A program made the position numbers and the translations under genes. The notes under the pieces are model-generated. The model saw only the letters and a list, made by a program, of their open reading frames with translations, was not told where the DNA came from and did no database searches. 64,000 bases of DNA from Infirmifilum lucidum (GTDB lineage Archaea > Thermoproteota > Thermoprotei > Thermofilales > Thermofilaceae). The stretch spans positions 1,527,699 to 1,591,698 of the forward strand of contig NZ_CP062310.1 of NCBI RefSeq assembly GCF_014876775.1, read 5' to 3'. Every line of letters begins with the position of its first letter. Position 1 is the first letter of the stretch. This document shows positions 4,004 to 62,021 of this stretch, one piece after another.

Positions 4004-6983
4004 GAAGAAGTCAAGAGACAATAGAAAGTGTAGAAATCGCAAGTGTTCTTTTATACTATCTGTTTTTGAAGAAGTCAAGAGACAATAGAAAGGTACTTGG
4101 AGCAGGCGATTATGCGGGCCTCCTCTGTGTGGGAAGAAGTCAAGAGACAATAGAAAGTTTCGGCCATCCCTACACCTCACCTCTTTTTTCTTTTTCAAGA
4201 AGAAGTCAAGAGACAATAGAAAGTGGATAATCGCGGCAAGGTAGCGTCTCTCGTTGTCTGTTAGGGAAGAAGTCAAGAGACAATAGAAAGCGTCCACACC
4301 GCGGCAGTCGTGTTCAAGCGCCACGCCGGAAGAAGTCAAGAGACAATAGAAAGCTGGGGGCTCCACCAGCACGTAGGCAGTGTCAGGGGCATGAAGAAGT
4401 CAAGAGACAATAGAAAGAGAACTTACGGAGAAGGAGAGGGAAGACTTACGAGAGTTCTTGAAGAAGTCAAGAGACAATAGAAAGTATTTAAGCCTTTTCC
4501 GGGCCTGCGGAGCCTTTATAAGAAGAAGTCAAGAGACAATAGAAAGGCATGTCCAGCGGCCGGACGGGGGCCACTACCACGACATACGAAGAAGTCAAGA
4601 GACAATAGAAAGTCTGGCCCCCTATGTTGAACACTGCCAGCGTGACCCTCTTAGGAAGAAGTCAAGAGACAATAGAAAGAAGGACGTGATAGACAGGCTC
4701 AACATCGTGAGGGTGACGGAAGAAGTCAAGAGACAATAGAAAGTGGTGGGGAAAAGCGGCCAAAGTATTCAAAACGACAAGGGATTTGAAGAAGTCAAGA
4801 GACAATAGAAAGATTTTTTGCCCCACCAATTATATTATATCCCTCACTGCCTAGAAGAAGTCAAGAGACAATAGAAAGCGGATGGCCTCGGCCTCCTCCC
4901 TGCGGTACGTCGCGAGAAGAAGTCAAGAGACAATAGAAAGTCTTCCACCTTGCCGCGTTTAATATCGTACCCAATGCTGAAGAAGTCAAGAGACAATAGA
5001 AAGGTACACCACGCCGGCAAGAGTGAAGGCGAGGGCCAGTGCCAGAAGAAGTCAAGAGACAATAGAAAGTTGCAGGGTCACAGACGTACAGCGCTGCACT
5101 GCCGCTGAAGAAGTCAAGAGACAATAGAAAGTTTCCCTCTCGAGTGAGGAGTATGGAGACGTGCTTTTTGCGAAGAAGTCAAGAGACAATAGAAAGCCTC
5201 CAATAATACTTCTAAGAACGCCGACATCGTTACTTTCACCGAAGAAGTCAAGAGACAATAGAAAGGGTTGAGCCGGGCACTCTGAACACCAAAACCACGA
5301 GGATATGAAGAAGTCAAGAGACAATAGAAAGCGTATCTCCACTGGCAGCAGTGAGAGCAGCAGAACCAAGGAAGAAGTCAAGAGACAATAGAAAGGGGGG
5401 CGGCGCTGATGGCCTCGCACCTGACCTGGGCCTCCCGGGAAGAAGTCAAGAGACAATAGAAAGTTGAGCATAGATATTGCGTTGAGCGTGCTTGCAGAGA
5501 GGGAAGAAGTCAAGAGACAATAGAAAGATCGAGTCAAAGACCGGCCTGTAGCCGCCGTACACCGCGAAGAAGTCAAGAGACAATAGAAAGTTTTTCCCAG
5601 CGAATTCGCACGAAAGGCATATTTTTCTTTGAGAAGAAGTCAAGAGACAATAGAAAGCTCCAGGAGCCTGCTCATCCCCGCAGTCCTGTTGTTCAGAAGA
5701 AGTCAAGAGACAATAGAAAGTTCAATGCTGAAGCTCTTGAGCAGCTCTGGCTTCTCAAGAAGAAGAAGTCAAGAGACAATAGAAAGAGAGAGGAACAGTA
5801 GCATGATAAACGCGGCTATAAAGGAGTTGGAAGAAGTCAAGAGACAATAGAAAGATGGAGGAGGAGGCTAGGGGTGTGTTCTACGATACTCTTGAAGAAG
5901 TCAAGAGACAATAGAAAGTTTTCCGAGCCCTCTCCCCGTGGACTTTTCCAAAAATGATCGAAGAAGTCAAGAGACAATAGAAAGCTAGTCGAGGCCGGGG
6001 AGGAGCTAGGGGACAACGTGAAAAGAAGAAGTCAAGAGACAATAGAAAGGCGTACCTCGCGCTACTCAGGCCAGTACTCGGCTTCCTCGAAGAAGTCAAG
6101 AGACAATAGAAAGAGGTGGCTCGCCCACTTACTGGTCACCAAGATCATCTACGAGGAAGAAGTCAAGAGACAATAGAAAGCTTCTTTTTGACGTCGACGT
6201 AGACGCGGCGGTCCCCTGTGAAGAAGTCAAGAGACAATAGAAAGATGCAAGGTCACCTCTCCTCCACGAGGAGAGGAGAACAAGAAGAAGTCAAGAGACA
6301 ATAGAAAGACGGCGAACAGCGTGTCGCCCAGGAAGACGTAGTTGCCCAGGGGAAGAAGTCAAGAGACAATAGAAAGACTATGCTGAGACAGAAGAAGAAG
6401 CACTAGAACTCATAGAAGAAGTCAAGAGACAATAGAAAGTTTTCGAATAAACGGGGAGGGCCCTCAAGAGAGGAAATCGAGGAAGAAGTCAAGAGACAAT
6501 AGAAAGTTCTTTCTCTTTCTTTTATCCCCGTGATTTTCCCCCCTCTTTCTTGAAGAAGTCAAGAGACAATAGAAAGGGAAATGGACAACGGTTCAAGTCA
6601 CCCCTGACTACACGCGAAGAAGTCAAGAGACAATAGAAAGTGTTGGGGTGTCACTAACGATAACTGCTCTATACGCCATACTTGCTGAAGAAGTCAAGAG
6701 ACAATAGAAAGAGAAGAGCTTGAAAAGATGTTTCCGGAGACAGAGGGATTTGGAAGAAGTCAAGAGACAATAGAAAGGTTTGGGCTTCGCCTTCCACGCG
6801 TGTTCCCTAATTTTCAATGAAGAAGTCAAGAGACAATAGAAAGTATATTTAAAAGCGACCTCGTGCACCATCATTGGCTGTCGAAGAAGTCAAGAGACAA
6901 TAGAAAGTTTGAGAAGCAGAAGGGGGCAACGGGTCGAGTACAGCCTTTCCTCTACTGCGAGTGAGTCAAGGGATAATAGAAAG
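4004..6983 (+). CRISPR. CRISPR array 1, 46 repeats
   Basis: I count 45 near-perfect 25-nt repeats, beginning GAAGAAGTCAAG and ending AATAGAAAG, plus a degenerate last repeat at 6959-6983 (5 mismatches). There are 45 spacers, mostly 37-45 nt; the last is 51 nt. The ATAGAAAG end is the expected 8-nt crRNA 5' handle left by Cas6. The leader at 3761-4003 and the decayed repeat at the far end fix the orientation as plus. Open frames that read through the array are repeat artefacts and not genes. The spacers at 5332-5370 and 6245-6283 resemble spacers in array 2. Confidence 0.98.
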
Positions 6984-15087: not shown

Positions 15088-15176
15088 CTTTCCATCGTCT
15101 CTTGACTTCTGGCGCAGTGCGGGGTCTGACAGCGGTCTAGACGATGCTGGGCTTTCTATTATCGTTCACAACGACA
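15088..15176 (-). CRISPR. Mini-CRISPR relic: two degenerate repeats and one spacer
   Basis: On the minus strand, 15112-15088 matches the array repeat at 21 of 25 positions, keeping GAAGTCAAGAGAC and ending GGAAAG. The position 15176-15152 keeps only the repeat's 3' end, ATAATAGAAAG, with the handle ATAGAAAG intact. The 39 nt between them (15151-15113) have normal spacer length. A TATA box lies 12-25 nt upstream (see 15183-15195). It sits in the convergent gap between the type III operon and cas6, opposite in strand to both full arrays. It may be a dead array, or it may make a crRNA-like RNA that guides a Cas complex, as described for CreR-type RNAs. The latter is inference. Confidence 0.7.
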
Positions 15177-15182
15177 GTAAAA

Positions 15183-15195
15183 CTTAATTTATAAG
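15183..15195 (-). promoter_or_regulatory. TATA box of the mini-CRISPR
   Basis: Minus-strand CTTATAAATTAAG is a strong archaeal TATA element. With the usual 25-26 nt spacing, transcription would begin near 15165. That is inside the first degenerate repeat, just before the 11-12 nt that are conserved. The next gene on that strand ends much further upstream, so no other target for this promoter is seen. Confidence 0.55.
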
Positions 15196-15269
15196 GCAGG
15201 CTGTTCCCAGGGAAGCCTCCCGGGGGAAAGGATAAGTACCCCGGATCCCCCCACTCTAGAGAATAAAGT

Positions 15270-16085
15270 TTAGGCCTGGCCCTCCAGCCAGCGCACTCTT
15301 ACCCTGCCGAAGCCGAGGGCCCTCGACTGCCCCACCCCCGTGGTCTCCGCGAGGCTGAGGGCCGCGGCTATGAGCGGGGCGTCTCTGGAGCCGTGTATCG
15401 CGTAGACCGCCGTGCCCACGAAGGCCGGAACCACCCTGCCCTCGCCTATGTCGACTAGCACGGGCCTGTAGCGGGGCGCCCCCACGGCCTCCACGGTCTT
15501 CGCGACCGTGTCGCTGGCGGCTCTCGTGTCGACCCCGGTGATCCTCGAGTATGTCCTGAGGGCGCTCAGCACCACCCTGGCGGGGGACGGGTAGAGGACG
15601 TCTCTGCCGTAGAACATGAGGATCGCTGGGGACAGGAACTCGACCTCCGCGGCGACCCCCTCTCTGGGCACCTCCCGGGGCCGGGGCGGCTCGGACTGCC
15701 TCACGGACACGTCGACTACCCGGAACTCCCCGCTGGGCAGCGAGACCGACATGTCCCTGGCTATCGAGAAGATGTAGTCGGAGGCGAGTTTCTCCGAGTA
15801 GAAGTGCGCCGTGACCGTGAGAGGAGTCCCAGCCCTCACCTCGTACACCCTGGGCGCCCCCCGCCTGGACAGGAGGCCCGTGAGCAGGTAGCCGCCGGCC
15901 CCGTCGACGGCGAGGGGCTCCACGGAGAACTCCTTCTCGGCCTTCTTCGGGAAGTCGACCCCGCTCCTGTGGAGGAACTCGTAGACGACCTTGAGGGAGA
16001 AGCTCCCGCTCCACGTCACTATTGGCGTGTCCTGCATGGCCACGAGCCTCACGGAGACGCTGTAGAGCCTCGGCCTCCCCGCCAT
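15270..16085 (-). CDS. cas6: Cas6 crRNA-processing endoribonuclease
   Basis: A 271-residue RAMP. The C-terminal glycine-rich loop GVGQSRALGFGRVRV is the Cas6 hallmark, and the two-domain layout and length fit crenarchaeal Cas6. It cuts pre-crRNA within each repeat, leaving the 8-nt 5' handle (ATAGAAAG here), and is the only Cas6 in the island. It therefore probably serves both arrays and both effector types. A candidate general-acid His is present near residue 35 (FLHRSG) but is not proven. The ATG at 16085 is preferred over a TTG at 16094 because the TATA box (CTATAAAT on plus, 16113-16120) predicts a leaderless start there. Confidence 0.85.
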   Translation of the reverse strand: MAGRPRLYSVSVRLVAMQDTPIVTWSGSFSLKVVYEFLHRSGVDFPKKAEKEFSVEPLAVDGAGGYLLTGLLSRRGAPRVYEVRAGTPLTVTAHFYSEKLASDYIFSIARDMSVSLPSGEFRVVDVSVRQSEPPRPREVPREGVAAEVEFLSPAILMFYGRDVLYPSPARVVLSALRTYSRITGVDTRAASDTVAKTVEAVGAPRYRPVLVDIGEGRVVPAFVGTAVYAIHGSRDAPLIAAALSLAETTGVGQSRALGFGRVRVRWLEGQA

Positions 16086-16253
16086 CCAGACCAATACACC
16101 TTGCGCGCCCGCCTATAAATCGCTTAGCCCGCAACCGGGGCTGAAAAACTTGCACGATATCCCCTGGCCCCGGAGTAAGGAGTACAGGAGGTTGCGGGGC
16201 ACTGTTGCAAATTCACTTTCACCGTTTTCTTCGACAGGGTTAATAGTTCAATC

Positions 16254-21905: not shown

Positions 21906-24900
21906 GAAGAAGTCAAGAGACAATAGAAAGTAATTCGTAGCCGCGAATTATTAAATAACATCCACGAGAAAGGAAGAAGTCAAGAGACAATAGAAAGAGT
22001 GACGGTCACTGTAATAACGCGTCCGTCCACACTGATCCCACGAAGAAGTCAAGAGACAATAGAAAGCCTTCTCACTTTGTTGAGATCAACGAGTATGCGT
22101 TCAAAATTATGAAGAAGTCAAGAGACAATAGAAAGAAAGCGGGGCTCGGGGGGAGGGACTACGCCCTCCCTGTGAGCGAAGAAGTCAAGAGACAATAGAA
22201 AGTCCTCTAATTTCTCCGCGTCCACCATCGCGCGCTCGAAGAAGAAGTCAAGAGACAATAGAAAGTCTATGACGCGTGGCAGCACTGTCCTATACGGTAT
22301 CTCCAGTGGAAGAAGTCAAGAGACAATAGAAAGTAAAACCTGTAGAGTTTCCAATGTAGCCCGAAGAGGGCCCCGAGAAGAAGTCAAGAGACAATAGAAA
22401 GCAGTATTCGTAGGTAGCAGTGGTGTTTCCCCGTGTTTCCCCGGAAGAAGTCAAGAGACAATAGAAAGTTGCTCTACTATTACCTCACCTCCATCGACGC
22501 CAGAGAGGGAGAAGAAGTCAAGAGACAATAGAAAGAGTTGGCAGCAATGAAAGTAGCAGAACTAAGAAGTCCCTGTCGTTCTCGGGAAGAAGTCAAGAGA
22601 CAATAGAAAGTAACATGAAGGCAAGGATGACAGTATTTCGGAGTGACGTTTATGAAGAAGTCAAGAGACAATAGAAAGGCCGAAGACTTCCGTCACCCAC
22701 GTGTAGCGGTTGCGCCTGGAAGAAGTCAAGAGACAATAGAAAGCCCAGGTAGTACTCAATGATCGCCTTGTTAAACTCATCTGCCCACTTTATCGAAGAA
22801 GTCAAGAGACAATAGAAAGGATGAGCTTGTCACGCCAGTAAGGCATCACGTCTAAGCTCTTTGAAGAAGTCAAGAGACAATAGAAAGACAAAATGACTGT
22901 AACTACTCCCCTTTTCATCATGGTGGAAGAAGTCAAGAGACAATAGAAAGTGCTTTTCCTTTCCGTAGCTCCAGGGCTACTTCCTCAAGAAGAAGTCAAG
23001 AGACAATAGAAAGTTATCTGTGACGTTATGTACCGGTGTCCCCGTAACCCGTGAAGAAGTCAAGAGACAATAGAAAGTCCCATGTCCTGAAGGTAAAGAA
23101 CAGGCCGATCCCATACCTGGAAGAAGTCAAGAGACAATAGAAAGCTGGAGCTCTCCCAGCGCCCCTTCGACTACATCGAGGCCATAGAAAGAAGAAGTCA
23201 AGAGACAATAGAAAGCCTAAAGGACAGCGAAGTCCTGCACCGGGGGCATTTAAGAAGAAGTCAAGAGACAATAGAAAGCAAGAGTAGTTCAAGGTCTTCC
23301 TTGGAGATTATCCCCCGAAGAAGTCAAGAGACAATAGAAAGAGGATGTGGCGAGGCGCCTGGCCTCGATACTAGAAGAGCTGAAGAAGTCAAGAGACAAT
23401 AGAAAGAATAATCGCTTTATTGAAGCTGTCTGCCCACTTGATCAGAAGAAGTCAAGAGACAATAGAAAGTGCCCTCAACTCCTCCGGCCGTATCTCCTCC
23501 ACTCTATACCGAAGAAGTCAAGAGACAATAGAAAGATGTTTTCAAGGTCTCATGGACAAGCGGGGGTACGGGGTATTCGAAGAAGTCAAGAGACAATAGA
23601 AAGGAGGCCAACCTTACGCCACGTCTTATCGCCAATGACAAGGTAGAAGAAGTCAAGAGACAATAGAAAGGCCGAGGTTAGAAAGATGCTTGAGAGAGCA
23701 TTTCTGGAGGGAAGAAGTCAAGAGACAATAGAAAGTGTAATATCCCCAGACCAAATGATGGCGATAATTACAGATGGTGAAGAAGTCAAGAGACAATAGA
23801 AAGTTGCACCTTGGACACCTCGTGTCTTTCTTCCTCCCAGTATGAAGAAGTCAAGAGACAATAGAAAGGTACACTCCCCGTACACCACTCTGTACACTTC
23901 CCTGTACACTTGAAGAAGTCAAGAGACAATAGAAAGCATTCCCCACTCTCCGCAACGCCTCAAAGACCTCACTACCGAAGAAGTCAAGAGACAATAGAAA
24001 GCGCGAGTGCTCGCTCCCATGCGCCAGAGTCGATTGCTTCTAGAAGAAGTCAAGAGACAATAGAAAGTGGGTTCTCGCGCTCGCGGTAGCGGCCCCCCTG
24101 GCGGTCTCCCGAAGAAGTCAAGAGACAATAGAAAGATCTTCTCTGCATTGTACATCGCCCGCTCGAAGAGGGAAGAAGTCAAGAGACAATAGAAAGGAGA
24201 GGTACGGGTTTAGGATAAAGAAGTTCTTCGTAGAGAAGAAGTCAAGAGACAATAGAAAGCATAGCTCCCTTGATTATCCTGACGTCTTGTAAGAAAACCT
24301 GGAAGAAGTCAAGAGACAATAGAAAGTGACAAGACAGACGCCCGCTTGATCCTAGATTTAAGCACGAAGAAGAAGTCAAGAGACAATAGAAAGATTGAGG
24401 GAGTGCGTAACACTATTATCCAGGTAGTTAACGCGAAGAAGTCAAGAGACAATAGAAAGTGTGGGAGAAACTGAGAGGCCTCGCAGAATGGATGTTCTCG
24501 AAGAAGTCAAGAGACAATAGAAAGTAAGCCACTGGTAGAGTCGGTTAAAGAAAATGTAGCTGGCCGAAGAAGTCAAGAGACAATAGAAAGCAGAAATTGG
24601 TCTCAGCTAGTAAAGCTGTATAGGTAGAGAAGAAGTCAAGAGACAATAGAAAGAGGGAAGCCGTGAAAACGCTCGGGCCGTGCTGGAACTTTATGAAGAA
24701 GTCAAGAGACAATAGAAAGTTTTACCCGGGGCGTTTTGAAAACAGGGCTAGGGCCCACGTATTTTGAAGAAGTCAAGAGACAATAGAAAGTGTAAGCGAA
24801 GGGCAGAGCCAGCCGGGGTGCTCGTAGTATGAAGAAGTCAAGAGACAATAGAAAGCTAGTCACCTTGCGAGATGGTTACACTAGCCCGAATGCTGAAGAA

Positions 24901-27900
24901 GTCAAGAGACAATAGAAAGGTTCTGTCATTTTGCTTTCACCAACATAATAATATCCCTGAAGAAGTCAAGAGACAATAGAAAGAAGTACACCTCTGTACT
25001 GTCAACCCCCCTCTTTACCCTGAAGAAGTCAAGAGACAATAGAAAGGAGTGGGTGAAGACGAGTGATCGCCGTACCTCCAGTGGCTTGAAGAAGAAGAAG
25101 TCAAGAGACAATAGAAAGCTCTATGCCGACGGAGTAAGTCCACGCAGCCCTCTGTAGAAGAAGTCAAGAGACAATAGAAAGTCGTGTCAAATGATTTTGT
25201 ATATGTTTACATGCGTTGAGGATGAAGAAGTCAAGAGACAATAGAAAGTTGGATGTCAACAGCATGTATCCATACGTGATGGCGAATTAGAAGAAGTCAA
25301 GAGACAATAGAAAGTGCGGTGCGTACGACGTCCCAGGCCTCCTCCGGGTGATAGAGAAGAAGTCAAGAGACAATAGAAAGGTTGCTCCCCCACCTCTATG
25401 GTTATAGCCTTCTTCCCCTTCTGAAGAAGTCAAGAGACAATAGAAAGCGAGAGTTACTACAGGCGGAGGTTCGGCGTCTCTGGCAAAGAAGTCAAGAGAC
25501 AATAGAAAGCTGCTGCCAGGAGGTCTATGGTGGAGAGGAGGTCTTGGAGGAGGAAGAAGTCAAGAGACAATAGAAAGGACGCGCTTGACCAGCTCTACGG
25601 CGGCTTTGGCTCGAGGAAGAAGTCAAGAGACAATAGAAAGCTATACCCCAAACCCTGCTCCCTGAGTATGTCCAAGATTTCGAAGAAGTCAAGAGACAAT
25701 AGAAAGGTTGTTGACAAGACGTGGTACTGCAGAGTTCTCTGGGAACCAGAAGAAGTCAAGAGACAATAGAAAGTACTGCACGGGCCTAGACGACGCTACC
25801 CTCGGGCCCGAAGAAGTCAAGAGACAATAGAAAGATAGTTATTTTATAGGAGCAGGGGGGGCCGCTGGGAATGAATTAAGAAGAAGTCAAGAGACAATAG
25901 AAAGGACATCAATAACCACAAAGCGGTTCAGCAACGGTTCTGGGAGTGGAAGAAGTCAAGAGACAATAGAAAGTGTAACATTCCCCGCTTTCCCGAGAGC
26001 GGCCTTGACGGCAGAAGAAGTCAAGAGACAATAGAAAGTTTCCCCGGGAAAGAGAGGGAAAAAGAAAAAGAAAAAAAAAAGAAGAAGTCAAGAGACAATA
26101 GAAAGCCTCCCCCGGCTCCACAGACACTCTGGAGAACGCGGCGAGGGAAGAAGTCAAGAGACAATAGAAAGGCGGGCGGCATAGAGATCCCGTACAGCCC
26201 GACGCCACGCGTGGGAAGAAGTCAAGAGACAATAGAAAGGCCTCCGCGAGGGCCCCGAGACTGTCACGGGGGGCAGGTATGAAGAAGTCAAGAGACAATA
26301 GAAAGCCTGGGCCATCTCCGGCCTCACCACTGTTATTATATCCCTCGAAGAAGTCAAGAGACAATAGAAAGTCCTCGTGGAGGAGAGGTAAACAACTGCT
26401 GACAGAGAGCGGAAGAAGTCAAGAGACAATAGAAAGTGGGAACAGTCCGTCGTCGCTGGCGAAGACGAAAGCCGTGAAGAAGTCAAGAGACAATAGAAAG
26501 TCCAGGTACGCGGCCAGTTCGTTGATTATTTCGATGATGTTGAAGAAGTCAAGAGACAATAGAAAGTGGCTAGCCTCGCCGCCGAGCCGCTACCACCGGA
26601 TCCTTACTGAAGAAGTCAAGAGACAATAGAAAGTAACAAAGTTCCTATAGAATCCATCGGTATCTCCTCTGCTAGAAGAAGTCGAGAGACAATAGAAAGA
26701 TCACCGACAACAACCACAAATCCACATAAAAAACTGAAGAAGTCGAGAGACAATAGAAAGGCCTGTGTACCCGGCCTGATAAACACTTCCCCGAATAACC
26801 TGAAGAAGTCAAGAGACAATAGAAAGTTCGAATTCATCTTGGTTGAAATCGAAAGTGAATTTTGAAGAAGTCAAGAGACAATAGAAAGGAGTGGCAGTGA
26901 CATTATTAAGTCGACCAAATCAGAGGAAGAAGTCAAGAGACAATAGAAAGGCCCACGTGCGCCTAAAACATTTAAATAACTCTTTTTGAAGAAGTCAAGA
27001 GACAATAGAAAGCACGAGTCCCGGGACTTTCCCTGCCTCCTTTAATTTAATGAACTCCGAAGAAGTCAAGAGACAATAGAAAGCGTGATACTGATTGTCT
27101 GAATTACTTGCTGTGCTACGGCAGAAGAAGTCAAGAGACAATAGAAAGGCTTCAGAGGCCGGGCCTCCCCTCCCTCGAGGCCCTCAGCAGGAAGAAGTCA
27201 AGAGACAATAGAAAGTTTCGCAATGAAAGGCGATATGGCCCAATAACTGGCCCGCCAGAAGAAGTCAAGAGACAATAGAAAGCATGTTGGGATCGTAGTG
27301 TACGTCGAAGGCTGCCAGGGGAAGAAGTCAAGAGACAATAGAAAGCCGGCTCTGGGGCAAACAACTGTTTTAATAACTTTAAAAAGAAGAAGTCAAGAGA
27401 CAATAGAAAGACTCCACGACAGCCGACCTACGCCTCCTACGGCGCCGCGGCGAAGAAGTCAAGAGACAATAGAAAGGAAAGAAGGCGTGCATGTACACTG
27501 CCTCTGTCTTCCCGGAAGAAGTCAAGAGACAATAGAAAGTACCAATTTTTGTGGTCTCGACGGCCTCTTCAAGGAGGAAGAAGAAGTCAAGAGACAATAG
27601 AAAGTTCCTCGGAGAAGGACAAGACAGTGTCTGGGACACGAGGAAGAAGTCAAGAGACAATAGAAAGTCTTATAATTAACGATGAAAAAGCGCAGTTGTT
27701 CCTTTTGAAGAAGTCAAGAGACAATAGAAAGTGCAAAAATTTTCCCGCGGCTATCAATTAACATTCTCGCGAGAAGAAGTCAAGAGACAATAGAAAGGGA
27801 AGGCCTATGTCGAGCTAGTCTTCCAGCGCCCGGACGGAAGAAGTCAAGAGACAATAGAAAGCCATGCTGCAGGCCACCGGCATGCACCCCGCGCTGGTTC

Positions 27901-29134
27901 GAAGAAGTCAAGAGACAATAGAAAGTTACCCCCGTAAGCCACGAGGACGTACGTCCCGTTCGGCACGGAAGAAGTCAAGAGACAATAGAAAGCATGGAGA
28001 CTGCTCACCTCCTCTCCTCGTGGAGGAGAGAACAAGAAGAAGTCAAGAGACAATAGAAAGTCGAGAGCAGGGCCATGGCCGCGCCCGCCGCAGCGGCTGA
28101 CGAAGAAGTCAAGAGACAATAGAAAGGACAAGCCAGCGAATCAATGTCTCATTGATGCGCTCTGGAACCTTGGGAAGAAGTCAAGAGACAATAGAAAGCC
28201 TGGAACGCCTTCCCGGCCTGCGCCAAGGAGACAAGCGGAAGAAGTCAAGAGACAATAGAAAGGGGTGTGTCGGCCTCGGCCAGGGTCACCTGGGAGACGT
28301 TGAGGGAAGAAGTCAAGAGACAATAGAAAGATAGACTCCGGCTTGCCCGCCGCGAACTATACACTCGACGGAAGAAGTCAAGAGACAATAGAAAGTTTCC
28401 CATAATTTATGATGGTTTTTTCTCTGTTTCATGCTAGAGAGAAGAAGTCAAGAGACAATAGAAAGCCCAGGAGTAAGGTGGTCTTGGTTCCCACTTTCGT
28501 CTGAGAAGGAAGAAGTCAAGAGACAATAGAAAGGCAGGCCTCGTACTGCGCCGCTGGAACACCTGGGAGAAGAAGAAGTCAAGAGACAATAGAAAGGGTG
28601 TATTCGTAAATGATTCGTGGCTTGCATTAGACATTTTGGAAGAAGTCAAGAGACAATAGAAAGTTCGAACCTCCACACCCCGTGGAGACGGTCGTAGACG
28701 TACCGAAGAAGTCAAGAGACAATAGAAAGACGCCAGCTCGGTCGCCGGCGCCGGCTTCAGTTCAGTGAGAAGAAGTCAAGAGACAATAGAAAGTGTTAAA
28801 GTATACATTCACATCATCAACTGCATTCTTGAGAAGAAGTCAAGAGACAATAGAAAGGTTGACGTAATAAACGCCCTGAACTGTCACCACCTTAAGAAAA
28901 TGAAGAAGTCAAGAAGACAATAGAAAGGAGCACGTTGAGCGCATGAAAAGACTCGGGGAGATGCCGCTGAAGAAGTCAAGAGACAATAGAAAGCCATGAG
29001 GGCGCGGAGAGGCGTTACGCGTACTAAGACGCCGGAGACAATTGTGAAGAAGTCAAGAGACAATAGAAAGAGGAGGAGTTGTTTGGGCAATATCTCCTTT
29101 GGGCCATTGGAAGAAGTCAAGAGATGATAGAAAT
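21906..29134 (+). CRISPR. CRISPR array 2, 110 repeats
   Basis: I count 110 repeats of the same 25-nt unit as array 1 and 109 spacers averaging about 41 nt. Sequence variants include a first-base change at 25485, an A-to-G change shared by the neighbouring repeats at 26675 and 26736, a one-base insertion at 28902-28927 and a degenerate final repeat at 29110-29134. The variants lie far from the leader, as expected for old repeats. Several spacers encode homologous peptides or share hairpins with others (see findings). Apparent ORFs across the array are periodic artefacts. Confidence 0.98.
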
Positions 29135-32142: not shown

Positions 32143-33362
32143 CTGTCTCCCTGACTACCGGTCTGTTCTCCGAGCTGGTCTCGCAGGGCCTGGCGTACCT
32201 CTACGTCTACAGCCTCTACGGCGTCCCCCTGGACGACCCCAGCGTGGATCAGCGGGTGGCCGACATCTTCGAGTACGTGGTAAAAGAGCTTGAAAGGGAT
32301 AAGGAGTACCTGGCGAGTAGCGAGGTGGCCGGGCACTTCAAGTCGCACTACTTCGCGGGCGACAGGGGAGTCCTCCTGCGCTGGTACGGCGGCGGGGAGC
32401 AGCCTGCCCAGCACACCGAGCTCATGCTCTACGTGATGAAGGGGACTGCCGGGTTGCTTAGGCAGGGCCAGGTCTCCTTCGCGAAGAGCATGCAGGCCGT
32501 CAGCGGGCTGAGCTACGGCGTACCCTTCAAGGGCCTCATGGCAATTCCTCCGGCGATCATCAAGCAACCGGAGTTTTACGAGAAGCAGACGCTGTTCCTC
32601 AAGCCGACGAGCGGCCCCGACGCCGACATAGAGGTCGACCCCGTCTGGTTCGCCGTGCTGGCGCTGGGCTTCATGCTCGGCTTCGGCGGCTACTACGACG
32701 GCGCCTACCACGTGTTCACGAAGCCCGGCCTGCCCCCGACGCTCGAGGGAGTTTCCGCGGTGCCCCTGGACAAGCTTAAGGACATAGTCGACAGCTTAAG
32801 TACTCTCACGGCCGCCAGCAGGAGGGAGAGGCCTACGACCGTGTCGGAGGAGATATTCGCGCTCCAGCTGTCGATTGCCGTGGCCAAGTCCGAGCGCGCG
32901 CTGCCGCGCGAGGTCTTCCCGTTCTGCCTCTACGAGATCGAGTACATAGCGAACACCTACACTCTGACTAGGAGCGTCTTCGTGAACATCGAGCCCCTGG
33001 TAACCTACTTCGAGAAGTACTACGAGGTTCTGAGGAAGGAGGTTACCGGGCTGAGCAAGGAGGAGGCCCTCAAGCCCCTCAAGGCTGTCGTGGGTCTCGC
33101 GGCGCGGGAGCTGTCGGAGCGCTTCAAGCAGAGGGCTTCGAGGGAGGCGGGCGAGCCGCTGGCCTACCTATTCGTAAAGGACTTCTACAGGGCGGTGATG
33201 TCCGGTAACGCCAGGCTCCTGGAGGAGTCGCTCCTCAGGTTCCTGAGGGAGCTCGACGTCGCCCTGCACGCCAGGGAAGTGCCGAGGGAGTATAGAGACG
33301 ATTTGCAGAGGTTCAGGGGAGAGCGCAACGTCAAGGCTATGGTGGAGGCCGTGCTCAGATAG
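32139..33362 (+). CDS. cas8a2: Cas8a2-type large subunit of type I-A Cascade
   Basis: A 407-residue protein in the large-subunit position of the operon. It has no short diagnostic motif, but the mixture of a long N-terminal alpha/beta part, LSYGVPFKGLMAIPPAIIKQ near residue 130 and a helical C-terminus fits Cas8a2/Csa4 or the related Csx9 family. It should recognise the PAM and recruit Cas3. The start is GTG 32139, overlapping the cas5 TGA. The stop overlaps a degenerate CRISPR-repeat-like sequence at 33359-33383. Confidence 0.7.
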   Translation: MTVSLTTGLFSELVSQGLAYLYVYSLYGVPLDDPSVDQRVADIFEYVVKELERDKEYLASSEVAGHFKSHYFAGDRGVLLRWYGGGEQPAQHTELMLYVMKGTAGLLRQGQVSFAKSMQAVSGLSYGVPFKGLMAIPPAIIKQPEFYEKQTLFLKPTSGPDADIEVDPVWFAVLALGFMLGFGGYYDGAYHVFTKPGLPPTLEGVSAVPLDKLKDIVDSLSTLTAASRRERPTTVSEEIFALQLSIAVAKSERALPREVFPFCLYEIEYIANTYTLTRSVFVNIEPLVTYFEKYYEVLRKEVTGLSKEEALKPLKAVVGLAARELSERFKQRASREAGEPLAYLFVKDFYRAVMSGNARLLEESLLRFLRELDVALHAREVPREYRDDLQRFRGERNVKAMVEAVLR

Positions 33363-33383
33363 AAGCCAAGAGGCGGTAGAAAG
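33359..33383 (+). repeat. Degenerate CRISPR-repeat-like sequence upstream of cas3'
   Basis: This stretch matches the array repeat at 19 of 25 positions and keeps the 3' handle GTAGAAAG. It overlaps the cas8a2 stop and ends 23 bases before cas3'. No partner repeat lies at spacer distance downstream. The next similar words are at 33526 (17/25) and, further on, within cas3'. It is probably a relic or a repeat-derived regulatory site. Confidence 0.5.
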
Positions 33384-33406
33384 AGAGACGATGGAGGGGT
33401 GGTGGA

Positions 33407-35113
33407 ATGGCGCCCGGGAACTTCCTGCTCGAGTCCTACAGGCTCGTCGAGAGGGCTGCCAGGCGGGAGGGCGACGCGAGGAGGCCGCTGCTCGAGCGCT
33501 TCTTCGAGGAGGCGGCCCGGCGCCTAGAGGAGTCGGGAGACGGTAGGAAGAGGGAGGGTAGGGCCTTCCTCGCTGTGGTCAACGCGCCCACGGGCTACGG
33601 GAAGACTAGCCTGAGCCTGGCCTCTGCGGCCGCGTCGGCCCTGGACGCAAGCCTCTTCCCCAAGGTGATACACGTGCTGCCGCTCAGGTCCATAGTGGAG
33701 GACGTGGCCGGGAGGGCTGGGGCCCTGCTCGGGCCGCACGCTGTCGGCGTGAAGATGATGGGGGTCAGCGTGGAAGTCTTCCACACCTACCCCCTGAACG
33801 TCACGACAGTCGACACCTTCACTTTCGACCTCCTGAAGCTGAATACGAAGAAGCTCAGGAGGATCAGGGCGGGGGAGGAGTTCGGCTACGACTTCCTGAC
33901 GCAGGCCAGTATCCTGAACTCCCTGGTCGTGCTCGACGAGGCGCACTACGCGCTGGAGGAGGAGTACATGAGGGACGTGTTCTACCTCGTTCTCGATTTC
34001 CTCCTAAGCGTGAAGGTTCCCGTCGTCGTCATGACCGCTACCCTGTCGAGGGGCTACGAGGAGCTGTTGAGAGCCCTCGCCGAGTCCAGGGGCGTCGACT
34101 ACTTCAGGCTCGAGCCCGATGCCAGCGACCCCTACGTGGTGGAGCAGGCCCGCAAGGACGTAAGGGTGGAGTTTATGAGCGAGGAGGAGGCGCTGGGTGC
34201 GGCCAGGAGTCAAGAGATAGTGGAGAGGGGGAGGGTGCTGGTCGTGGCCAACAACCCCTACAGGGCCACCTGCATCTTCGAGAGGCTCAGCAGGAGGGGC
34301 TTGAAAGCGCTACTCCTCCACGGCAAGATGACCCCGTCGCACAAGAAGAGGGTTCTCGGCCTAGTTGAGGAGATGGAGAGGCGCGGGGAGAGCTTCGTGC
34401 TCGTCGCCACGCAGGTCGTGGAGGCTGGCGTGGACGTGAGCTTCGACACCCTGGTTACGGATCCGGCGCCGGCGTACAGCCTCATCCAGAGGGCGGGGAG
34501 GGTTGCGAGGAGGCCGGCGGAGAGGAGCGGCAGGATCATAGTCGTCGAGGACGGCCCGGCAGAGCCCTACGACAGAGTGAAGGTCTTGAGAACCCTCGAG
34601 TGGCTCGAGGAGAATCGCGACGTTTTCAACCCGCGAGTTCCGGGCACGTACTCTGACTTGCTGGCCCGAGTCCACGGGAGCAGGTCAACCGAGGTTCTTC
34701 CGGGCAGCTCGAGGCTCAGCGGGGTCAAGCTCGAGCTCTTCGACCCCCTGAGCAGGAGCTTCGACGTCTTCGAGGAAGTAGTCGAGATTGTCAAGAGGGA
34801 GCCTTTCCTAAGAGAGTTCAACCTACCCGTAGAGGTGGGCGGGGAGACCGTCCTCCTCACCCCCCGCGAGGCCTACGACCTCTACGAGCGGGGGCTCCTC
34901 CGAGTAGGCGGTGACGGGCTCGAAGGGGAGGAGCCGGGGGACGGTAGAAAGGAAGGGATAGACTTCTACGAGCTGGCCAAGCAGGTGGCGCTCGGCAAGG
35001 ATGTTAGACTGGAGTTCGCCGGCTCCTACGACCCCGTTAGGGGGCTGGCAGAGTGCCGGGCGATAGATGACGAGAAGGGGTCAAGAGACAACAGAAAGGG
35101 AAGGGGGAGTTAG
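33407..35113 (+). CDS. cas3': Cas3' helicase of type I-A
   Basis: A 568-residue superfamily 2 helicase. Motif I is NAPTGYGKTSLS near residue 58, motif II VLDEAHYAL near 180, motif III MTATL near 207, and motif VI ends LIQRAGRVARRP near 365. The HD nuclease is encoded separately by the next gene, as usual for type I-A. It unwinds DNA after Cascade binding. The ATG at 33407 follows GGAGGGG. Oddly, the C-terminal tail EKGSRDNRKGRGS is encoded by a CRISPR-repeat-like stretch (35074-35098, 22/25 match), which adds a basic end not expected for the family. Confidence 0.92.
   Translation: MAPGNFLLESYRLVERAARREGDARRPLLERFFEEAARRLEESGDGRKREGRAFLAVVNAPTGYGKTSLSLASAAASALDASLFPKVIHVLPLRSIVEDVAGRAGALLGPHAVGVKMMGVSVEVFHTYPLNVTTVDTFTFDLLKLNTKKLRRIRAGEEFGYDFLTQASILNSLVVLDEAHYALEEEYMRDVFYLVLDFLLSVKVPVVVMTATLSRGYEELLRALAESRGVDYFRLEPDASDPYVVEQARKDVRVEFMSEEEALGAARSQEIVERGRVLVVANNPYRATCIFERLSRRGLKALLLHGKMTPSHKKRVLGLVEEMERRGESFVLVATQVVEAGVDVSFDTLVTDPAPAYSLIQRAGRVARRPAERSGRIIVVEDGPAEPYDRVKVLRTLEWLEENRDVFNPRVPGTYSDLLARVHGSRSTEVLPGSSRLSGVKLELFDPLSRSFDVFEEVVEIVKREPFLREFNLPVEVGGETVLLTPREAYDLYERGLLRVGGDGLEGEEPGDGRKEGIDFYELAKQVALGKDVRLEFAGSYDPVRGLAECRAIDDEKGSRDNRKGRGS
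35074..35098 (+). repeat. CRISPR-repeat-like sequence inside 3' end of cas3'
   Basis: It matches the array repeat at 22 of 25 positions, with changes only at repeat positions 5, 6 and 19, all transitions. It lies in the same orientation as both arrays and is translated as part of the Cas3' C-terminus. Such a match is far beyond chance. It marks a repeat insertion, or recombination between an array and the operon. Confidence 0.85.
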
Positions 35114-56546: not shown

Positions 56547-56614
56547 CCCTACTAAGGTGCGACTCTATTGGAGGAAAAATAAATAAGATGTTAGTACAAT
56601 AGCATGTGACGGGA

Positions 56615-57058
56615 GTGCCGGGGCAGAGGCTCGTGATCTCAGTACTCGCGCTACTAATGTTCTCGGCCGCGGCCTTCGCAACGACGTGCAGTAGGGGCGT
56701 TGAAACATGGTCTGCCATACTCTCAGCACACGCATCAATAACTGGTAGCAGCCCCTACTCTGCGACAGGCTACGCTGCGGGCGTCGCCCGTGGAACTGAT
56801 CTTGGGTGTATACTATGTCCTCTGCTTCGCGCTAATTTTGCAATAATTACTTTGGGATCTGAGTTTGAAAGACCTCGGGATTCGTGGGGTCTTTTGTGTC
56901 CAGGGCACCAAGCGCGGTGGAGCTCTACAGGGGCTATTGGTAGCTGGGTCTATGCTTACACTTACACTCCTTGTGGCAATAAGGGGGTAGAAGTCACGGC
57001 ATTCCTCTCGGGGTATTGTGCCACGTCGGTGGGCGTTGAGCAGTGTACTGGAGGCTAA
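56615..57058 (+). CDS. Secreted Cys-rich protein, copy 1
   Basis: A 147-residue protein with a signal peptide (LVISVLALLMFSAAAFA) and a mature part with CSRGVETW, GYAAGVARGTDLGCILCP, a central CPG and an ending GYCATSVGVEQCTGG. Paired Cys residues suggest disulphides outside the cell. The family is not known to me. The GTG at 56615 is chosen over 56606 because it aligns with the ATG of its duplicate at 58681. The gene ends inside the start of the membrane-protein gene at 57043. It is part of a tandem duplication. Confidence 0.6.
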   Translation: MPGQRLVISVLALLMFSAAAFATTCSRGVETWSAILSAHASITGSSPYSATGYAAGVARGTDLGCILCPLLRANFAIITLGSEFERPRDSWGLLCPGHQARWSSTGAIGSWVYAYTYTPCGNKGVEVTAFLSGYCATSVGVEQCTGG

Positions 57059-58470
57059 CTCTACTCGCTCTTTTTCTCCTCTTTCTCCTCGCCTACAGCA
57101 GTGCTGTAGCGGTTCCGAGCGGCAGCTACATGGTGTACAGGATCGACGCTCAAGAGAGTGGGTCTGGAGTACCACCTTTCGTGGGCGAAGAGGCCGTAGC
57201 TATAATCTCCAGGAACAACCCCAGAATCAAGTTGCTAGTACAACTAAGCAACTTCACTGATGGGTCGCACGAACAAGTCTGCTACATTGGGGCGGGGGGC
57301 GGCGAGATTAGAATTCATGTCCTGAGCGCTAACTCTAGCTTCTATACTGTGCAGTACGCGTTTATACTCTACAATGCTACACTCGCGTGTAAGCACGAAG
57401 CTCAAAGTCTAGGCCTCTTCAGGGGGGTTGAGTGGGTACATGAAGGCAACTACCTGGTAGCACAGCCTAGAGCTTTGAATATCACGAGGTTACGCTACGT
57501 GTCTGCGCGGGACAACGGCGTCTACGATGAGGGCGGGAACCTGCTGGGGGAGTGGCTCTTCTGGCTACCAGAGGCAACGCTAAAGCAAGGCTACACCTTA
57601 GTCCTCGCGCACTTACACCCAGCTAAGATCTCTCCGGAGTTGAGCCTAGAGGGCTGTGGAGTGGCTGTCCTGCTGGGGGTGAACTTCTCCAAGGCAGTGA
57701 AAGGCCCCGGATACAGGGTTGGCAATGTAGTCATCCCGCCCACGAGCCTAGTCCAGGGCAGCACGGTGCGGTACGGCTTGCTCTACTCGCACGTAAAGTG
57801 CGAGGACAGGGCCTCAAGGGACTACGTTCTCTCACTCTACAGGACATACGTCTCTCCACCTCCAGAGCTCAAGGAACACGTCGCGGATAACAGTATCTGG
57901 ACAATCAACACGGCTATGACGTCTTTTAACGTGAGCGGCGCCGAGCGGAAGCCATGGAGGCTAGTGCCTAGTGAAACCACTACGAATGTCTCGGGGGTTA
58001 GGTGCGTAATTACAACCAAGGGGGCTGATGTAGAGCTCTCCGGGAGGCTATTCCTGGTGCCTCCTCTCCTCTACTCCTATGAGGCGCTCTGGGACAGGAG
58101 TACCGGCGTACTGGTCGAGCTGTCCCAAGAACTCACTGAATTCCTGTTTAGTAGCGAGACCCCGGCAGTACTCTCGGAGTACCTCGGCTTTGAAGGAAAA
58201 GACGCCATCTACACTCTACTCTGCTTAAACTGCTACCTCTCCGTCAGGCTCGTAGATACAAATGTCTTGAAGCCTCCGAGCTACCTGGGCTCTCCAGGGA
58301 GGCCTGACACGCGCGTGGAGACGGCCTTCACGGCACTCATACTAGTAGGTGTCTTAGCCTGTGCCACGGGTGCTATGGGGTACGCTAGGAGTATCCTGAA
58401 ACAAGTGAGGACTAGGCATTGGATCAGCGTAGCTAGAGCACGAGAGAGAGTTGCAGGAGCAGAGAACTAG
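57043..58470 (+). CDS. Secreted/membrane-anchored protein, copy 1
   Basis: A 475-residue protein with a signal peptide (LLALFLLFLLAYSSAVA), a large outside part with many NxS/T sites (NFT, NSS, NAT, NIT, NFS, NVS), and one C-terminal membrane span (AFTALILVGVLACATGAMGY) before a basic tail. Its family is unknown. It overlaps the Cys-rich gene by 16 bases, so the two products are likely made together and may interact at the cell surface. The stretch around residues 160-190 (LRYVSARDNGVYDEGGNLLG) is nearly identical to copy 2. The start is GTG. Confidence 0.65.
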   Translation: MYWRLTLLALFLLFLLAYSSAVAVPSGSYMVYRIDAQESGSGVPPFVGEEAVAIISRNNPRIKLLVQLSNFTDGSHEQVCYIGAGGGEIRIHVLSANSSFYTVQYAFILYNATLACKHEAQSLGLFRGVEWVHEGNYLVAQPRALNITRLRYVSARDNGVYDEGGNLLGEWLFWLPEATLKQGYTLVLAHLHPAKISPELSLEGCGVAVLLGVNFSKAVKGPGYRVGNVVIPPTSLVQGSTVRYGLLYSHVKCEDRASRDYVLSLYRTYVSPPPELKEHVADNSIWTINTAMTSFNVSGAERKPWRLVPSETTTNVSGVRCVITTKGADVELSGRLFLVPPLLYSYEALWDRSTGVLVELSQELTEFLFSSETPAVLSEYLGFEGKDAIYTLLCLNCYLSVRLVDTNVLKPPSYLGSPGRPDTRVETAFTALILVGVLACATGAMGYARSILKQVRTRHWISVARARERVAGAEN

Positions 58471-58508
58471 TCCTCACCTAACCTCTAGGAGAGTACGGGC
58501 TTCTAGCC

Positions 58509-58610
58509 CTAGGCTCCTGCTTGCTTGAATGCAAGCTCGTCTACGCGTCTCAGCTTAAACCCGAAGGCTCTAGCGAGAGGCTCCGCCGTAACCTGCACGA
58601 CTGGGTAGGG
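58509..58610 (-). pseudogene. 3' fragment of metG carried by the tandem duplication
   Basis: On the minus strand this encodes YPVVQVTAEPLARAFGFKLR followed by RVDELAF, which matches the C-terminal end of MetG encoded at 60513 (YPVMPATAESLARAFGFQLR, RVDRLAF). No other part of metG is present. It lies exactly downstream of copy 1, as metG lies downstream of copy 2. The duplicated unit therefore included the last 100 or so bases of metG. Confidence 0.85.
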
Positions 58611-58680
58611 GCCCCCAGCAGCCAGCTCTCCAAAAGAAAAGAATAAGTAAGTTTTCGATGTACAGTAATATAAATGGGGG

Positions 58681-59122
58681 ATGCCGAAACAGAAGCTTGT
58701 GTTTTTGTCGTTCATGCTGCTGTCGCTCTCGGCTGTAGCTTTTGCGACAACATGCAATAGGAGCTCTTCGACGTGGGCTTCCTCGGTCTCGGCGCTCGCA
58801 ACAATAACTGGTAGCGACCCTTACTCCTCGACAGGCTACGCTGCGGGCATTGCCCGTGGAACTGATATTGGGTGTTTTATATGCCCTTCGAAGTTGGCAT
58901 ACATTAGGTTCATGAGCGAAGTCGACGTTCCATGGGAACATTGGGGGTAGTATGTGCCCATATTTGAGGGGGTCTTGGAGTTACTCTCCGGGAACCGCAG
59001 GCAGCTGGGTTGAGGCATACAGTTACACTGTGTGTAGCGATAATGGCGTAAAAGTAATAGCTTTCCTCTCGGGGTATTGTGCCACGTCAGTGGGCGTGTC
59101 TGGGCAATGCGCCGGAGGCTAG
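58681..59122 (+). pseudogene. Secreted Cys-rich protein, copy 2, frameshifted
   Basis: It starts at ATG 58681 with a signal peptide (LVFLSFMLLSLSAVAFA) and continues CNRSSSTW and GYAAGIARGTDIGCFICP like copy 1. After DVPWEHWG a run of five G (about 58944-58948) shifts the frame. The expected continuation (SMCPYLRGSWSYSPG to SGYCATSVGVSGQCAGG) is intact in another frame to the stop at 59120-59122. Removing one G restores the full protein. It could be a recent mutation, a sequencing error or a programmed slip. Confidence 0.75.
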
Positions 59123-60516
59123 CCCTGCTTACTCTCTTACTCCTCTGCGCTCTCGTCTACGAGAGCGTTACAGCAATACCGAGCGGTAGCTACATGGTGT
59201 ACAGGATTGAGCCGCGAGAAAGAATACAGAGAACAATGCGGCCACTGCACGAGGACGCTATGGCCATAATCTCTGAGCAGAACCCGAAGATCAAGTTTCT
59301 ACTATTCCTGCATAACTTCACCAGCAGGAGGTCTACGCTGGTCTGCTACATTGGAGTGGGGGGCGGCGAGATTAGGGTTGCTGTTCTGGGCGCTAACTCC
59401 AGCTTCTACACTGTGCGGTACACGCTTGCGCTCTATAACGCTACACTTGCGTGCATGCACATAGCCCAAAACCTGAGCCTCTTCAGGGAAGTCGAGTGGG
59501 CACGTAAGGGCAGGTACCTGGTGACACGGCTGGACGTCTTCAACGTTACTAGGCTTCATTACGTGTCTGCGCGGGACAACGGCGTCTACGATGAGGGCGG
59601 GAACCTGCTGGGGGAGTGGCTCTTCTGGCTACCAGAGGCAACGCTAAAGCAAGGCTACACCCTAGTCCTCGCGCACTTACACCCAGCTGAGGCTACCCTG
59701 CCGTCAGGCGCAGAGGGTGATGGGGTTGCTGTCCTGCTGGGGGTGAACTTCTCCAAGGCAGTGAAAGGCCCCGGATACAGGGTTGGCAATGTAGTCATCC
59801 CGCCCACGAGCCTAGTCCAGGGCAGCACGGTGCAGAGTGAGGCGTTCCTGATACACTACAAGTGTAAAGACTCGTTTTCCAGGGACTCCCTTCTCGCGCT
59901 GCTCTTCAAATACTTCTACTCTTCTGCTCCTCCAGAGTTCAAGTTGTACGTTGTCGGCAACGATATCTGGGTCAATCACACGGCTATGACTTCCTTCAAC
60001 AGGAGCGGCACTGAGCGGAAGCCATGGAGACTGGTACCGTACGAGTATGTTGTCATCAACTCCTCGGAGCTGGGGTGCATGCGCATAGACAGAGACGCGG
60101 TCGTAGAGCTCTCCGGGAAGATGTTCCTAGTGAGCCTCTTCTACTACAGGGCGCTCTGGGACAGGAGTACCGGCGTACTGGTCGAGCTGTCCCAAGAACC
60201 CAGCGAAAACCCGTTTAGTAGCGAGACCCCGGCAGTACTCTCGGAGTACCTCGGCTCCGAGCGTGGAGATTCCTTGTACGCTGTGCAGAGCATAGACTAC
60301 TACTTCTCTCTCAGGCTGGTGGACACGAATGTTATAAAGCCACCAAGTCACCTGGGCTCTCCAGGGAGGCCTGACACGCGCGCGGAGAGCGTGCTTGTAG
60401 CCGCCGTTGTTGCAGGGGTGCTCCTGTACGCTACGGGAATCGTCGGCCGCGCTGTGGGGAGTGTCCTGAAGAAACCAAGTGGCAGTAAAAAGGAGAGTGC
60501 GCGCGCAAGGGGCTAA
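59107..60516 (+). CDS. Secreted/membrane-anchored protein, copy 2
   Basis: About 469 residues, a paralogue of the protein at 57043 along its whole length. It has a signal peptide (LALLTLLLLCALVYESVTA), glycosylation sequons throughout and a C-terminal membrane span (VLVAAVVAGVLLYATGIVG). Blocks at about residues 155-185 and 210-245 are almost identical in DNA to copy 1 while the flanks differ, which suggests recent gene conversion. The ATG at 59107 overlaps the end of the Cys-rich gene like the GTG in copy 1. Its stop overlaps the converging metG stop by 4 bases. Confidence 0.65.
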   Translation: MRRRLALLTLLLLCALVYESVTAIPSGSYMVYRIEPRERIQRTMRPLHEDAMAIISEQNPKIKFLLFLHNFTSRRSTLVCYIGVGGGEIRVAVLGANSSFYTVRYTLALYNATLACMHIAQNLSLFREVEWARKGRYLVTRLDVFNVTRLHYVSARDNGVYDEGGNLLGEWLFWLPEATLKQGYTLVLAHLHPAEATLPSGAEGDGVAVLLGVNFSKAVKGPGYRVGNVVIPPTSLVQGSTVQSEAFLIHYKCKDSFSRDSLLALLFKYFYSSAPPEFKLYVVGNDIWVNHTAMTSFNRSGTERKPWRLVPYEYVVINSSELGCMRIDRDAVVELSGKMFLVSLFYYRALWDRSTGVLVELSQEPSENPFSSETPAVLSEYLGSERGDSLYAVQSIDYYFSLRLVDTNVIKPPSHLGSPGRPDTRAESVLVAAVVAGVLLYATGIVGRAVGSVLKKPSGSKKESARARG

Positions 60517-62021
60517 GCCTTGCCGACCTTCTCGAAGAGTATGGGTGCTTCACTCACGCTGTAGGCTTCCACCTGCCCGAACGCTAGCCGGTCCACGCGC
60601 CTCAGCTGGAACCCGAAGGCTCTGGCGAGGGACTCCGCCGTGGCCGGCATGACTGGGTAGAGGAGGTTTGTCGCTATCCTGAGTGCCTCCAGGACGTTGT
60701 AGAGCGGCTCGCGGGGGTCTTCGAGGGACCACGGCTGGGTCTTGTTCATGTACCCGTTCGCCTCCCTGAGCAGGTCGAGTACTGTTGAGAGAGCCTCCGA
60801 GACCCTAACTTCCTGCATGAGCCTCCCAACTTTCTCGACCGTAGAGTTTGACAGCTGCTCGAGGCCGGGGTCGGGGCCCGCCCTCTCCACTCTACCTCCT
60901 AGCTTGCGCATTGCGAGCACCCCCGCCCTGCGGACGAGGTTGCCGTACGTGTCTGCTAGCTCGCTGTTGTAGATGTTGTCGAGGAGGCTCTGGTCGAACT
61001 CGACGTCCTTATCGAGGTTCAAGAGCCTCATCAAGAGGTACCTCACGGCGTCCGGGGACTTGTACCTCTCGACTAAGTCGTCTATGAGGACGACGTTGCC
61101 CACGCTCTTACCCATCTTCAGCCCCCTGTTTACGATGTAGGCGTGGACGATGAGCCTCTTCGGGGGGCTCAGGCCCAGCATCCTCAGGACGGAGAACCAT
61201 ATGGCGCTGTGGAACCAGAGGATGTCTTTCCCGATAATGTGGTGCGCCTCAGCCCAGTACTTCTCGAAGCTGTTGTTGTCCCTCATGAAGCCCACCCCGG
61301 TGAGGTAGTTCAGGAGCGCGTCGATCCACACGTACGCCACGTAGTCCCTGTCGAACGGTAGCTCCACGCCCCAGTAGACCCTGCTCTTCGGCCTAGCCAC
61401 GGACAAGTCCCTCAACCCCTCTTTCTTTATCCTGCTGAGGATCTCCCTGGCGTATCCCTCAGGGAAGACTATGCCGCCTTCCTCGATCAGCCTGGTGACC
61501 TCTTCCTGCAAGGCCGAGAGCTTGAGGAAGTACGTCTCCTCCTCCACTAGCTCCAGGGGCTTGTTGTGTATCGGGCAGAGCTTCTGCCCGCCCTGCTCGA
61601 CGTATTCGCCCTCGCTGTAGAACTTCTCGCAGCTGACGCAGTACCACCCGCTGTACTTGCCCTTGTATATATAGCCCCTACTGTAGAGCTCCTCGAAGAC
61701 CTTCTTGACCAGCTCCTCGTGGTCGGGATCCGTAGTCCTTATGAACCTGCTGTAGTTTATCTCGAGCAGGCTCCAGTACTTCTTGAACACGGGCACCATG
61801 CTGTCGACGAACTCCTTGGGCGTCTTACCAGCCTTCTCGGCAGTCCTCTGGAGCTTCAAGCCGTGCTCGTCTGTACCCGTCAGGAAGAACACGTCGTGCC
61901 CGTTGAGCCTGTACCACCTGGCCAGCACGTCAGCCAGCACCGTAGTGTAGGCGTGGCCGATGTGGGGTATGTCGTTTGGGTAGTATATCGGCGTCGTCAC
62001 GTAAAACGCTTTCCCGGGCAC
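60513..62021 (-). CDS. metG: Methionyl-tRNA synthetase
   Basis: A 502-residue class I aminoacyl-tRNA synthetase that charges tRNA-Met. The HIGH motif is PHIGHAYTT near residue 19, and the KMSKS loop reads KMGKS in GLKMGKSVGNVV near 305. A zinc knuckle has CVSCEKFY and CPIH near residues 127-148. The C-terminal anticodon-binding domain ends the protein; there is no fused dimerisation domain. The start is GTG 62021, with a TATA element at about 62050-62058 on the minus strand. A fragment of its 3' end is duplicated at 58509-58610. Confidence 0.95.
   Translation of the reverse strand: MPGKAFYVTTPIYYPNDIPHIGHAYTTVLADVLARWYRLNGHDVFFLTGTDEHGLKLQRTAEKAGKTPKEFVDSMVPVFKKYWSLLEINYSRFIRTTDPDHEELVKKVFEELYSRGYIYKGKYSGWYCVSCEKFYSEGEYVEQGGQKLCPIHNKPLELVEEETYFLKLSALQEEVTRLIEEGGIVFPEGYAREILSRIKKEGLRDLSVARPKSRVYWGVELPFDRDYVAYVWIDALLNYLTGVGFMRDNNSFEKYWAEAHHIIGKDILWFHSAIWFSVLRMLGLSPPKRLIVHAYIVNRGLKMGKSVGNVVLIDDLVERYKSPDAVRYLLMRLLNLDKDVEFDQSLLDNIYNSELADTYGNLVRRAGVLAMRKLGGRVERAGPDPGLEQLSNSTVEKVGRLMQEVRVSEALSTVLDLLREANGYMNKTQPWSLEDPREPLYNVLEALRIATNLLYPVMPATAESLARAFGFQLRRVDRLAFGQVEAYSVSEAPILFEKVGKA

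Follow-up and report, generated by a model that had tools for sequence, protein, structure and literature searches.

CRISPR repeat-like words at protein insertions in the cas3' helicase gene of Infirmifilum lucidum

Two roles are known for ectopic CRISPR repeats, that of non-coding regulators and that of viral decoys. The CRISPR repeat-like elements of Shmakov et al. 2023 are reportedly intergenic regulatory RNAs of CRISPR-Cas loci that act by means of a guide. Repeats of another kind, the Rickettsia palindromic elements, are small and palindromic and occur in frame within many genes, mostly at tolerant surface sites. In CreTA/CreA, decayed local repeats stand outside the array in a type I cas locus and are probably array-derived; CreA is non-coding, and a spacer-like guide separates or follows its repeats (PMC8501985, PMC9458426). 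Solitary repeat units, or Racrs, are lone CRISPR repeats outside arrays which lie in mobile elements, often just past a promoter, and are transcribed as small RNAs (PMC10651486, PMC8616872).

Here we analyse five words that resemble the array repeat of the genome under study (G000, 1,625,846 bases) and lie in or directly before cas3', a gene of its type I-A cas operon. They resemble CreA in being decayed local repeats that lie in a type I cas locus, outside the array from which they probably stem, but they are single, mostly protein-coding and irregularly spaced, with no spacer-like unit. Like Racrs they are lone repeats outside arrays, whereas their site is a chromosomal cas gene rather than a mobile element. 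With the CRISPR repeat-like elements they have in common that they appear to be repeat relics near cas genes, and they differ in that four of the five are found in an open reading frame. The likeness to the Rickettsia palindromic elements is that the words are also in-frame insertions relative to orthologues, three of the four falling in low-confidence segments of the modelled protein; the Rickettsia elements, however, are spread over many genes, whereas the present element is confined to cas3' and does not recur in many unrelated genes. The words show significant similarity to the genome's own repeat outside its arrays, and are in that sense ectopic (degenerate) repeats, while their lineage-specific insertion, biased decay and the A of the own repeat at position 20 mark them as repeat-derived. 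A search of the open-access literature, which was not exhaustive, found no in-frame protein-coding repeat relics in a cas gene.

The repeat, the cas locus and five repeat-like words

The window, by which we mean the whole 64,000-nt stretch of DNA analysed, contains two CRISPR arrays built on one repeat, GAAGAAGTCAAGAGACAATAGAAAG, present as 150 exact copies and three copies with one change. The cas operon runs csa3, csa5, cas7, cas5, cas8a2/csx9, cas3' and cas3''; it is chromosomal, not viral, proviral or plasmid-borne, and its gene order is common to G000 and to the relative G001. The features are listed by window position.

4004..6907, plus strand: CRISPR array 1, with a repeat identical to that of array 2
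15270..16094, minus strand: cas6, processing endonuclease (TIGR01877, 8.2e-12, under the curated cut-off)
21906..29070, plus strand: CRISPR array 2, from which the repeat copies in cas3' presumably came
33359..33383, plus strand: word 1, 19/25, in the gap between cas8a2 (csx9) and cas3', inside 36 nt missing in G001
33407..35113, plus strand: cas3' helicase gene, 568 aa, host of four words (TIGR01587, 6.7e-69)
33526..33550, plus strand: word 2, 17/25, encoding most of the 8-aa insert ESGDGRKR (33530-33553)
34203..34227, plus strand: word 3, 18/25, spanning the 5-aa insert IVERG (34217-34231), between the two helicase domains
34927..34951, plus strand: word 4, 17/25, overlapping the 7-aa insert DGRKEGI (34940-34960)
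35074..35098, plus strand: word 5, 22/25, encoding the core of the 16-aa C-terminal extension IDDEKGSRDNRKGRGS (35063-35110)

An ungapped scan of the 1,755-nt region, with a threshold of at least 17/25, returned exactly the five words that the sequence-only reading had reported, at the same positions, with the same scores and on the array strand; no word of at least 17/25 was found on the minus strand of the region. The assignment of the word at 35074 to the Cas3' C-terminal tail was also correct. Two further inserted residues (GG) are encoded at 34907-34912, shortly before DGRKEGI. The coding words are read solely in the two frames in which the repeat has no stop codon (KKSRDNRK or RSQETIE). 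Spacings between the words are 167, 677, 724 and 147 nt, compared with array units of approximately 62-76 nt, and none of the cas3' words has a second unit of at least 17/25 or an array-spaced, spacer-like neighbour beside it. The word at 34203 is the least certain of the five, with a 5-aa insert and four of seven changes from AT to GC.

Decayed terminal repeats were also seen beyond the last units of array 1 (6959, plus strand, 20/25) and array 2 (29110, plus strand, 22/25). Near the end of array 2 (~28902-28927), one unit carries a one-base insertion, GAAGAAGTCAAGAAGACAATAGAAAG.

Chance tests, relatives and decay

Dinucleotide shuffles of the region held a mean of 0.02 words of at least 17/25; none of 2,000 reached five and none contained even a 19/25 word. 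Codon-order shuffles averaged 0.008 words and never reached the four found in the coding sequence. The observed count thus lay far above those of the shuffled sequences. Synonymous shuffles, in which the inserted peptides are kept, averaged 0.86 words, with at least four in 0.05%. Across all 1,625,846 bases with the arrays excluded, 65 words reached 17/25, where permuted repeats gave 34 on average, and six reached at least 20/25, where they gave 0.05. No 1,755-nt segment elsewhere in the genome contained more than three words of at least 17/25, and the rest of the cas operon yielded a single word of 16/25. The five words are as a group non-random, though those of 17-18/25 are individually unremarkable; the suggestion that these weaker words might be chance is contradicted for the group by the shuffles and the genome scan. 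On a composition-aware ‘relic’ score all five rank in the genome's top 11, a score that was tuned after the A-to-G bias had been seen and is partly circular.

Among 81 genomes of the class, the only close Cas3' is that of G001 (66% identical), whose arrays carry mostly GCAGAAGTCAAGAGACAATTGAAAG, nearly the repeat of G000. When the two proteins are aligned, G000 has four insertions of 5 aa or more, each overlapping one coding word, and none of this size without a repeat-like word; the coincidence of all random words with insertions has P about 4e-5, an approximate value which assumes independence. The gap before cas3' is longer in G000 (44 nt) than in G001 (8 nt), and the remaining word (33359) lies within the excess. 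G001 has no repeat-like words in its cas operon outside arrays, cas3' included. Compared with G001, no repeat-like insertions were found in csa3, cas7, cas5, cas8a2 or cas3'' (csa5 was left out), and the operon outside Cas3' shows few insertions of any kind. In a 15-member family alignment the ESGDGRKR insert and the tail have practically no counterpart outside G000, and most members lack the insert near 34203. Past repeat insertion, as had been proposed from the sequence, is strongly supported in that each word sits where G001 lacks sequence and the family alignment shows the ESGDGRKR insert, the 34203 insert and the tail to be gains of the G000 lineage. A relative with the same tail and a different repeat had been named as counter-evidence; comparison of the C-termini gave the reverse, with G001 having nearly the same repeat and lacking the tail. 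The inserts measure 24, 15, 27 and 48 nt in the gene and 36 nt in the intergenic gap, none of them 25 nt. Because the sole exactly comparable relative is only 66% identical, the alignment resolves neither the ends of the insertions nor target duplications.

The mismatches between words and repeat are strongly biased. Across the five words, 26 of 32 (81%) are A>G or T>C, compared with 103 of 408 (25%) in 52 background words scoring 17-18 and about 39% AT-to-GC transitions in random sequence of matching composition, so the A-to-G bias seen in the first reading stands. Every G of the repeat but the first is retained in nearly all five words, and positions 1-2 are mostly lost. Position 20 is A in four of the five, as in the G000 repeat, and T in the repeats of G001 and of G006, a genome of the same genus. 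Such a mismatch pattern is to be expected of repeats that ameliorate in a GC-rich gene. The words are arranged in a star around the array repeat, which we infer to be their source, and distances from it of three to eight changes suggest that they differ in age. Only the words at 33526 and 34927 are closer to each other (21/25 alike, with six A>G changes in common) than either is to the repeat, and it is plausible from this likeness that one is a copy of the other, made by secondary copying within the gene. An older array with the five-word consensus AGGAGTCAAGAGACGGTAGAAAG was considered as a source and rejected, as no relative's arrays carry such a repeat.

In an AlphaFold2 model of Cas3' (pTM 0.81), four segments fall below pLDDT 50, and three of them, residues 46-50, 507-514 and 554-568, correspond to inserts 1 and 3 and the tail. 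Insert 2, at the 34203 word, lies between the helicase domains in a modelled helix. Low-confidence loops or the tail thus hold three of the four inserts, a prediction of disorder, and the inserts appear to have been tolerated rather than selected. A local fashion in protein linkers was also considered as their origin, and is contradicted by proteome counts of GDGRK, DGRK and DNRK; GDGRK is not a common local linker, because the predicted ORFs, approximately 490,000 aa in all, contain it three times, two of them in Cas3'.

Other lone repeats in the genome

Beside cas6, a unit at 15088-15220 (minus strand) includes a TATA box, CTTATAAATT, the sequences AATAGAAAG and GTTGTGAAC and, after 39 nt, a repeat-like word, CCAGAAGTCAAGAGACGATGGAAAG (21/25). 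Over 78 nt its upstream part matches the array leaders with 72% identity (E 1e-4). The unit is a candidate for a leader-driven single-unit remnant or a CreA-like RNA gene by cas6, and no seed-matching target for it was found within the window.

A lone repeat of 24/25 at genome position 1367924 (minus strand) lies 160 kb from the arrays and ~96 nt upstream of a 320-aa zinc-ribbon-like gene, hence repeats do end up outside arrays. Another, of 22/25, at genome position 1519266 (minus strand) is 6 nt past the stop of a 257-aa coiled-coil-like gene on the same strand. In the window, a 19/25 word at 60468-60492 (plus strand) encodes KKPSGSKKE, the basic C-terminal tail of a membrane-type protein. 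The tandem paralogue of this protein, 2 kb upstream (56594-60663), also has a basic tail, of other sequence. A word at genome position 634451 (19/25, coding, at a C-terminus) was rejected as a further insertion, as orthologues align to the end; because it is no insertion, a single 19/25 match alone proves nothing.

Origin of the words and its consequences

We consider it likely that copies of the genome's own repeat were inserted at least four, and probably five, times into cas3' and the gap before it after the split from G001, and that the five words are their relics. Sequence comparison thus indicates that CRISPR repeats probably entered an immune gene and in part became protein-coding. The opposite direction of change, in which G001 lost stretches that the ancestral Cas3' had for reasons unrelated to repeats, seems very improbable: gain and loss are symmetric between two close sequences, but insert 1, the 34203 insert and the tail are missing from nearly all of 13 more distant family members, and loss leaves the likeness to the repeat unexplained. 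Chance or convergence, by which purine-rich sequence and Glu/Gly/Arg/Lys loops of cas3' mimic the repeat and the tail alone, or nothing, is repeat-derived, could draw on a region that is 57% purine (G 37%, A 20%), on three words with scores of only 17-18, which occur some 55 times genome-wide, and on the words that persist in peptide-keeping synonymous shuffles. It is already contradicted for the words as a group, by shuffles that keep composition or codons and by a coincidence with all insertions of at least 5 aa, and the AT>GC excess persists against composition-matched random matches; we regard it as improbable.

The words might instead be RNA signals at which Cas6, or a complex containing it, binds or cuts the cas3' mRNA in a negative feedback on the helicase-nuclease, the copies being selected. 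Such a signal would agree with words that cluster in one gene, all on the sense strand, in an operon otherwise without them, and with a slightly better kept 8-nt handle side (32/40 positions, against 61/85 for the remainder); ectopic repeats have been exapted in other systems (PMC9458426, PMC8730458). G001, however, has nearly the same repeat and no such words, positions 1-2 of the repeat are mostly lost, the mutation spectrum resembles base-composition drift, and relics of several ages suit decay as well as selection. We think it unlikely that the words are such signals, and equally so that repeats were repeatedly recruited as Cas6-recognition sites through which Cas6 meters the helicase mRNA, with the peptides as a by-product; Cas6 cleavage of the cas3' mRNA, raised in the sequence-only reading, is possible but unsupported.

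If the words are relics of inserted repeats, the insertions that survived would be those that kept the frame, fell in a stop-free frame of the repeat and landed in loops or at the C-terminus, and later drift by A>G and T>C would have moved them towards the GC-rich composition of the gene. No process by which CRISPR repeats would be inserted into genes is known to us. A candidate route is misdirected Cas1-Cas2-Cas4 integration of repeat-containing DNA fragments, and another would be break repair using array DNA. The first of these, stray integration, is compatible with the excess of 36 and 48 nt but not with the shorter inserts. Self-targeting spacers were rejected as a cause, with 0 of 150 spacers matching cas3' and best matches of 16-17 nt elsewhere; because none targets cas3', break repair after self-targeting is unsupported by the present spacers. 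The only notable self-match belongs to a spacer at window position 27149, which matches the own chromosome at genome position 1515114 over 22 of 23 nt.

Five insertions in one 1.75-kb locus are hard to explain by random insertion, and the clustering in cas3' poses the question of whether this gene is a hotspot by its location or whether repeat sites in its mRNA are useful. If repeat insertion is the right explanation, a process such as off-target adaptation or break repair with array DNA would be able to write repeats into genes, and CRISPR repeats would move within their own genome more than has been assumed.
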